Shown: positions 12,670 to 14,554 of the stretch, one piece after another
How the letters are laid out: each line of letters opens with the position of its first letter
How positions within the stretch are numbered: the stretch's first letter is position 1
DNA from: Solirubrobacteraceae bacterium
Lineage (GTDB): Bacteria > Actinomycetota > Thermoleophilia > Solirubrobacterales > Solirubrobacteraceae
Reading direction: 5' to 3'
DNA length: 64,000 nt
Assembly: GCA_030447785.1 (NCBI GenBank)
Contig: JAUJOF010000001.1
Location: 366,807 to 430,806, forward strand
Notes under the pieces: model-generated
Databases searched by the model: none
Told to the model about the DNA's origin: nothing
What the model saw: only the letters and a program-made list of their open reading frames with translations
Position numbers and translations under genes: made by a program

Positions 12670-13422
12670 GTGCGCATCACGGTGCTGGGCAAGTCACCCT
12701 CCTGGTCAGACGCGGGCGGCGCGTGCAGCGGGTACCTGGTGGAGGAGGCCGGCACCGCGCTGGTGCTGGAGTGCGGCAACGGTGTGTTCGGCAAGCTGCG
12801 CGAGCACCGGCGCTATGGGGAGATCGACGCGGTGGTGATCTCTCACCTGCACGCCGACCACTTCCTCGATCTCGTGCCCTTCTCCTACGCGCTGAGCTAC
12901 GGGCCGGGCGCCGGCGGGGCGCGCCCCGCGCTGCACCTGCCGCCCGGCGGGCGAGCCGGGCTGCGCCGCGTCGTGGGCACCTGGGGGCCGGAGGAGCTGG
13001 TGGAGGGGGCGTTCACCGTCCGCGAGTACGATCCCGGCGAGACGCTGGAGATCGGTCCCCTACGGGTGCGCTTCACTCCCGTGCCGCATTTCACGGTCAC
13101 CCACGCGGTGCAGGTCAGCGACCGCGCGGGCGCGCGCTTCACCTTCGGCGCCGACACCGGTCCCTCCGACGACCTGGTCGCCTTCGCGGCCGGCACCGAT
13201 CTGCTCATGCTCGAGGCCACCGTCGCCGAGCCCGACGCCGAGCCCCGCGGCCATCTCACGCCCGCCGAGGCCGGCGAGCACGCCGCCCGCGCCGGGGCGC
13301 GGCGCCTGGTGGTCACCCACCTCACCGACGAGGCCGACCCGGCCTGGGCGCTGCGCGAGGCCCGGGGCGCCTACGACGGACCCGTCGAGCTGGCCGCCGA
13401 GAGCGCGGTCTACGAGCTCTAA
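12670..13422 (+). CDS. MBL-fold metallo-hydrolase (RNase Z-like branch)
   Basis: 250 aa with the metal motif SHLHADHFLD at about residues 57-66, a second histidine in PHFTVTH, an Asp in FGADTGPSDD and a C-terminal VVTHLTDEAD. The GADTGPSDDLVAFAAGTDLL stretch resembles RNase Z-like and phosphodiesterase-like MBL proteins. There is no exosite arm as in tRNase Z, so RNA processing is not implied. Substrate unknown. Confidence 0.83.
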   Translation: MRITVLGKSPSWSDAGGACSGYLVEEAGTALVLECGNGVFGKLREHRRYGEIDAVVISHLHADHFLDLVPFSYALSYGPGAGGARPALHLPPGGRAGLRRVVGTWGPEELVEGAFTVREYDPGETLEIGPLRVRFTPVPHFTVTHAVQVSDRAGARFTFGADTGPSDDLVAFAAGTDLLMLEATVAEPDAEPRGHLTPAEAGEHAARAGARRLVVTHLTDEADPAWALREARGAYDGPVELAAESAVYEL

Positions 13423-13476
13423 GGGCCTATCCCGCTAGGGATCGCACGCCAAGGCGGCCGATCCGCGGCGCCTGGC

Positions 13477-13731
13477 GCCACCCGCGGTGCTCGCCGGTGC
13501 TCTGCACCGACTGCGCCCGCGTGCGGCGATCCGGCGCACACCACTCCCTTGACGGCCGCCACCCGCCGCGCCCACACCACTCCCTTCGGTCGTGCCACGG
13601 ATCGACCACCTCGCCGCGCGTCCCTACCGAGATAGGCAGCTCGACGGTGCGTCGGCGGGCGCCCGGCCGTGGATGCCGGGCGCCGCGCGGAGCGCAGTCG
13701 ATGCAGAGCATCGGCGAGCATCACGCGTGGC
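13477..13731. repeat. 40-bp inverted repeat pair with internal hairpins, 175-bp centre
   Basis: Arm 1 (13477-13516) and the reverse complement of arm 2 (13692-13731) match at 35 of 40 positions. Each arm holds a 6-bp hairpin with a 3-nt loop: CGGTGC-TCT-GCACCG in arm 1 and CGATGC-AGA-GCATCG in arm 2. The differences between arms preserve both stems. The centre has two copies of CACACCACTCCCTT (13537-13550, 13573-13586). I see no supported gene between the arms; the minus ORF 13427-13711 simply reads through the repeat. Confidence 0.7.
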
Positions 13732-14554
13732 GATGACGGCGTGCCGGACGTTTCGGACGGGCGCGACAGGTCGCGCCCAGCAGGCGCTCGACCTCGGCCA
13801 GGAAGCGCTGCGCGATCGCGATGGCCGCCGCTCCATCGGCCATGGGTCGCGGACCCTTGCCGTAGTCCACGGCGATGCGCTGCTCGTGCAGCTTCGCGGC
13901 CTCCTCGACGACCGCGCCTTCGAGCCGGCCGGTGGCGACCGGCTGCTCGCGCAGCAGGTGCCAGGTGCCGTGATGGGTGCGCGCGAAGCGGTCCTCCTCG
14001 CTGAGGGCCGCGCGGCCGGCCTCGAAGGTCGCGTAGTAGGACAGCGAGACGGCCGTCTTGGGATCCTCGTACTGCTGGGCCCGCCGTGCCCGACCCAGGC
14101 GGTCGCGCGCCTCCTCGAGGTGCTCGCGTGTGCGCTCTCTCATGCCGTCCGGGCGGTCGGTGGCCGGCACCGCGTCCACCGCGACGGGCCGGCGCTCGTG
14201 GAGCACGACGCGGTCGCGGTCCACCTCCAGCATGAAGAAGGCCTCGACGCGCCGGCGCTGGCGTATCCAGCTCTCTTCGACGACATGGGTCTGCAACGTC
14301 AAGGGCGGGTCCCCGCGCTTCTCGCCCCCCTCCCGCCGCGCGAGCTCGGTCACGGCGCGGAGATCCGTGCCGTCGGCCACAACGATCAGCAGGTCGACGT
14401 CCGAGTCCTCGCGCGGCGGCTCGCCCCGCGCGCGGGACCCGAACAGCCACACCGCGAGCAGTTCCTCGTCGAGGCGCTCGGCCAGCACGGCGATCAGGCG
14501 GTCGATCGCCCGCTGCTCGGCGGCCAATAGGGACGTCTGCTCGAGCATGGCCAT
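13721..14554 (-). CDS. Fused MNT nucleotidyltransferase and HEPN (UPF0332-like) protein
   Basis: 277 aa. The N-terminal third is a minimal nucleotidyltransferase with LFGSRARGE at about 40 and DSDVDLLIVV at about 52-61. The C-terminal part (about 150-265) matches the HEPN/UPF0332 pattern: SYYATFEAGRAAL, then THHGTWHLL, then DYG. The two domains usually come as separate genes of HepT-MntA (type VII) toxin-antitoxin pairs; here one chain carries both. A TACAGT box lies 8 nt upstream. Toxin, antitoxin or solitary enzyme activity cannot be told apart from sequence. Confidence 0.78.
   Translation of the reverse strand: MAMLEQTSLLAAEQRAIDRLIAVLAERLDEELLAVWLFGSRARGEPPREDSDVDLLIVVADGTDLRAVTELARREGGEKRGDPPLTLQTHVVEESWIRQRRRVEAFFMLEVDRDRVVLHERRPVAVDAVPATDRPDGMRERTREHLEEARDRLGRARRAQQYEDPKTAVSLSYYATFEAGRAALSEEDRFARTHHGTWHLLREQPVATGRLEGAVVEEAAKLHEQRIAVDYGKGPRPMADGAAAIAIAQRFLAEVERLLGATCRARPKRPARRHRHA

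Follow-up and report, generated by a model that had tools for sequence, protein, structure and literature searches.

Locus and feature map

The window, a stretch of 64,000 nucleotides from a Solirubrobacteraceae genome, contains an inverted repeat whose two arms, each 41 nt, were placed by a repeat search at 13476–13516 and 13692–13732. The arms are complementary at 36/41 positions (88%) and lie 175 nt apart, in agreement with the 35/40 identity and 175-bp spacing given in an earlier note on this DNA. Arm 1 contains CGGTGC-TCT-GCACCG and arm 2 contains CGATGC-AGA-GCATCG, hairpins that differ by one compensated pair (CGGTGC/GCACCG vs CGATGC/GCATCG); the sequences of both arms bear out the G–C and A–T exchange that the note had described. 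The direct repeat that it saw in the centre at a 36-bp period is also present, and measures 17 nt (16/17 identical, with CACACCACTCCCTT exact within it) rather than 14 bp. When positions 13450–13760 were used as a query against the organism's own genome (3.3 Mb, 41 contigs), 29 matches were returned, with E values down to 1e-42 excluding self, and a single strand of the inverted-repeat segment folds better than 100 of 100 shuffles (z −5.6). These many genomic recurrences, together with a fold better than all shuffles, exclude chance for the repeat segment.

The locus almost certainly consists of two adjacent, degraded miniature inverted-repeat elements (MITEs) that belong to two families and lie in opposite orientation:

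13420–13422, no strand: TAA, the probable left target-site copy (TNA) of element A, from matching triplets at other family A copies
13423–13635, plus strand: copy of MITE family A, from BLAST against own-genome copies on C22, C34 (three), C21 (360 kb), C16 and C37 and a divergent copy on C39
13471–13532, plus strand: hairpin core of element A (arm 1), with CGGTGC-TCT-GCACCG inside; 76.7 bits with covariance model R1, whose training set included this copy
13534–13586, plus strand: 36-bp tandem duplication with CACACCACTCCCTT in the right arm of element A, from the repeat search and copy alignment
13643–13761, minus strand: copy of MITE family B, inverted relative to A, from BLAST to C24 (94.5 kb and 82.5 kb), C37 (35.7 kb) and C39 (70.1 and 310.7 kb)
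13677–13737, minus strand: hairpin core of element B (arm 2), CGATGC-TCT-GCATCG; 64.4 bits with R1, whose training set also included this copy

The appearance of a single long inverted repeat arises because the oppositely oriented neighbours A and B share a central core, which is all that the two families have in common; their ends differ. Independent copies of a structured repeat, one of the two readings offered by the earlier note, is thus the correct description of the arms.

Its remark that no gene explains the repeat holds nearly throughout, the exception being an open reading frame on the minus strand (13721–14554) whose last codons and stop fall within MITE B. This frame encodes a single polypeptide with a nucleotidyltransferase and a HEPN domain; such a pair usually makes up the two genes of a toxin–antitoxin system. 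On the other side lies a metallo-beta-lactamase-fold gene (12670–13422, plus strand) that is conserved in 36 of the 41 genomes searched, and its stop codon TAA coincides with the probable target triplet of MITE A. Beside the metallo-beta-lactamase gene of a same-genus relative (G001) the element is absent and the adjoining gene is also different, so this locus is not a clean empty site.

Family A and the state of the window copies

The genome holds seven clear copies of family A besides the window copy, and one divergent copy. Family A copies span TWA-GGGCCTATCCCGCTAGGGA to CCGAGATAGACCC-TWA, and in six of the seven that are legible we read, by eye, the same triplet (TTA or TAA) at left and right. 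As a single strand, a family A copy folds by pairing from its ends to the loop. The 36-bp unit that is duplicated in the window is present once in other copies of the same subtype. The earlier note had called for a search for further copies and for flanking target duplications, and both were found, the latter around other copies of the family; the element is neither unique nor absent from relatives, the outcome which that note had named as its refutation.

In the window, element A retains only its left terminal repeat (GGGCCTATCCCGCTAGGGA, intact), the right end being cut after CCGAGATAG where the canonical end is CCGAGATAGACCC-TWA. Both ends of element B, canonically TNA-GAACTCGTCCGGAAACAG and CGTTTTCGGACGGGTTC-TNA, are eroded. 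The inner ends of the two copies are gone and the target duplication is illegible at both. Because A lacks its right end and B lacks both, the window copies are probably immobile.

Architecture of the wider element set

The two families belong to a wider set in which the hairpin core sits at the exact middle, the flanks are TNA and the terminal repeats are unrelated. Among 90 distinct core elements, 47 carry TNA-flanked terminal repeats with at least 13/20 matching positions around the core; at random centres drawn from these loci the figure is 6 of 2334. Identical TNA triplets occur on both sides of 27 elements, mostly TTA/TTA or TAA/TAA. Well-delimited elements measure 155–162 bp, and their core is centred to within about 2 bp; one element with an insertion (L009) deviates, and in some rows of the element table the automatically chosen ends are wrong. 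The element of a Proteobacteria MAG (G356) is longer, at roughly 0.3 kb as read by eye. For much of their length, many elements form a foldback free of gaps. The set has the general traits of MITEs: a size of ~158 bp, no coding capacity, 4–39 copies in several genomes, terminal inverted repeats and a target duplication. Element length clusters at 157–159 bp across phyla, close to 15 helical turns of B-DNA.

Structure of the shared core

In an alignment of 29 cores (A1), 13 of 18 pairs have changed on both sides, with a covariation score that no shuffle reached. A second alignment of 32 cores, none of them actinobacterial (A4), gives three stems and two internal loops with 91.5% of cells pairing; 14 of its 17 pairs are double-changed and it has 127 double-changed cells against 39 in shuffles (reached by 0 of 500), where the structure was drawn from A4 itself, which makes the slid control partly circular, and where the copies, as in A1, are related and the counted changes are thus not independent of one another. 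Across the changing stems, both internal loops (GCGTT/GCCTTG and CTCG/CCTNCG) retain their sequence. Selection on structure, which the earlier note had offered as one reading of the two arms, is supported across families by this covariation; the single pair of arms is insufficient for it.

Covarying helices and two internal loops of constant sequence would also fit a spreading repeat that acts as a structured RNA gene or as an mRNA element, with selection on the transcript of one strand. Some cores carry a TTCG loop, and other MITEs are transcribed into stem–loops (PMC10969869). Selection of this kind predicts an excess of G·U, whereas the mismatches comprise 11 G·T and 10 A·C (10:8 among distinct stems), small counts whose near equality does not point to selection on a single RNA strand. 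In addition, neither the window nor elements from other phyla gave a relevant match in Rfam, even at E ≤ 1, and every family is a TIR/TSD element. We consider the RNA reading quite unlikely and favour, on this pattern of substitutions, a constraint that acts on DNA or on both strands; the data thus lean away from the expressed RNA that the earlier note had proposed to look for.

Compensation could also come about in ordinary MITEs with an unselected core, by template switching between the arms. This quasi-palindrome correction, a mechanism known from the mutagenesis literature, copies the mutation of one arm into the other, and foldbacks such as these elements are its classic substrate. It should erase mismatches, yet the two internal loops stay unpaired across families and phyla, and loops that are kept while stems change are the opposite of its outcome. 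Template switching is therefore an unlikely explanation. The leading, although unproven, account is that the shared core would be a functional DNA hairpin with exchangeable ends.

Probable partner transposons

An orphan family A end in the own genome lies directly behind a 139-aa transposase remnant; the IS fragment of this genome ends in GGGATAGGCCC-TTA. The remnant matches the IS5 family model NF033580 at E 7.5e-28, under the curated cut-off, and scores over the cut-offs of PF13586 and PF01609; longer transposases of IS5 type are present in relatives. An intact 940-bp IS5-family element (L172) in genome G034 has a TAA duplication and the ends GGACCTATCCCGGTTGGG/GGACCTATCCCGGTAGGG. Family A-type ends (GGNCCTATCCCGGTWGGG) are shared with IS5-family transposons and were located at the transposases of L171, L172, L173, L176 and L179. 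Judged by these ends, family A is, or was, likely moved by an IS5-family transposase. In G356, the core-bearing element has the ends GGGTCTGGACTCAATTACCG and GGGTCTGAACCCAATTACCG, which agree with those of a PF01609 transposon in that genome (L306). Partner transposons were identified for these two families only; the PF01609 search yielded no partner transposon in 3 of 9 genomes, and matching IS5-type ends were not found for family B or the remaining families.

The core model has no significant match in the partner transposons L155, L171–L179 and L306, and the element interior is therefore not inherited from them. By the same search of these transposons, the elements do not have the parent-derived interior of a MITE formed by deletion of an IS.

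The many genomic copies of an imperfect hairpin, with some bases unpaired, also recall integron-like attC sites or REP/REPIN palindromes. Such sites would hardly account for transposon-type terminal repeats with 3-bp target duplications, or for ends that differ per family and match DDE transposons. The constant end boxes of attC (GTTRRRY / RYYYAAC) are lacking and the outer stems vary between families, while no constant GTAG or CGTC tag stands at the hairpin foot in alignments A1, A2 and A4. We regard an attC or REP/REPIN origin as extremely improbable.

We are fairly confident that the window holds a degraded MITE pair from a wider set of ~158-bp foldbacks, with a shared DNA hairpin core and exchangeable ends that fit resident IS5-family transposases. 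These transposases would move the elements in trans by recognising their ends, which would be adapted to the transposase that happens to be resident. The core, in turn, would be an old module that does not come from the partner transposons and is retained as a DNA hairpin, either as a cruciform or as a single-stranded foldback. It may aid the element, for example through juxtaposition of the two ends or binding of a host protein.

Distribution and kinship of the core

A scan of the genome collection with an exact core pattern returned many hits, the majority of which are not elements. MITE-like elements with the core occur in Thermoleophilaceae and other actinobacterial MAGs, in Saprospiraceae and another Bacteroidetes MAG, in Sandaracinaceae (Myxococcota), in a Phycisphaerae MAG and in a Proteobacteria MAG. 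Covariance model R1 counts 4 to 39 copies in each of seven genomes with MITE-like elements, and zero in two genomes (Hymenobacter and Bradyrhizobium) whose pattern hit had been judged a chance one. Pattern hits in Streptomyces, Sorangium, Hymenobacter, Bradyrhizobium and others lie mostly in one recurring gene-like context, and none of those tested is a MITE. In the class of the window organism, 19 of 299 genomes are core-positive; elsewhere few genomes carry the core (for G352, 1/297 in its phylum; for G356, 1/385 in its class; for G355, 3/343 in its phylum), with filters that lose weak matches. A plasmid collection searched with family A and a Bacteroidota element gave no match, and no core was found in viral contigs.

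With an actinobacteria-only core model, the cores of other phyla score 18–30 bits and chance pattern hits 21–34 bits. Because these scores are no better than those of chance hits, kinship across phyla rests on architecture and on flanking positions outside the search pattern; as the non-actinobacterial families were found through the exact pattern, it is these positions that provide an unbiased test. Each of the five non-actinobacterial lineages, as well as the actinobacterial L056, has a GCGT 13 bases upstream, compared with 0 of 43 distinct other hits. Together with the placement of the core at the middle of elements that resemble one another in size and flanks, this GCGT makes shared ancestry or a common functional motif, in our judgement, more likely than coincidence. 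Two elements, from a Planctomycetota bin (L339) and a Sandaracinaceae (Myxococcota) bin (L090), are 87% identical end to end, a likeness that suggests horizontal transfer or else binning error or contamination. On balance, we give about even odds to a MITE superfamily in at least five phyla, with one functional DNA hairpin core, two conserved loops and ends swapped to parasitise IS5-type transposons.

Relation to known elements

The interiors of bacterial MITEs are usually considered meaningless, the elements being taken for decayed insertion sequences. IS-derived examples such as QMITE2 of Coxiella measure 50–500 bp, have terminal inverted repeats, direct repeats and a foldback structure but no open reading frame, and are thought to be mobilised by an IS transposase (PMC10969869). 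The elements described here share all of these structural traits, size range included. They differ in their interior, which is no leftover of a decayed IS: it is absent from the two partner transposons found, and is common to families with unrelated ends and across phyla. With IS5-family insertion sequences (NF033580, PF13586/PF01609) family A shares its ends and TNA target, and the G356 family shares the ends of a local element; unlike these, the elements carry no transposase gene, and the IS lack the core. REP/REPIN sequences (PMC3116915, PMC3733652) are likewise dispersed, non-autonomous, imperfect hairpins, whereas the present elements are 158 bp long, have TIRs and a TNA duplication in place of the GTAG or CGTC tag, and are linked to DDE rather than Y1 transposases.

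An analogy may be drawn with the CORE-SINE, V-SINE and Deu superfamilies of animals (PMC6887750, PMC3272025), which are also non-autonomous, with a conserved central domain and ends swapped per partner; the elements here are bacterial, palindromic and dependent on DNA transposons, and are unrelated to them by descent. A literature search by core sequence and theme, with most subscription papers outside its coverage, returned no description of such a core. If the proposed reading is correct, a non-coding interior whose structure, and in part whose sequence, is conserved between families with different ends in five phyla would serve mobility or the host. The superfamily would be a bacterial counterpart of CORE-SINEs and would imply a conserved factor which recognises the core in trans, so that what recognises it becomes a directly testable question.

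A further core type occurs at L290, L297 and L299, with a wholly different central stem (for example ACGTGGC-GAT-GCCACG) and GCGTCCT flanking the loop on both sides; L297 has family A-like ends (GGGCCTAGCCCGGTAGGG).
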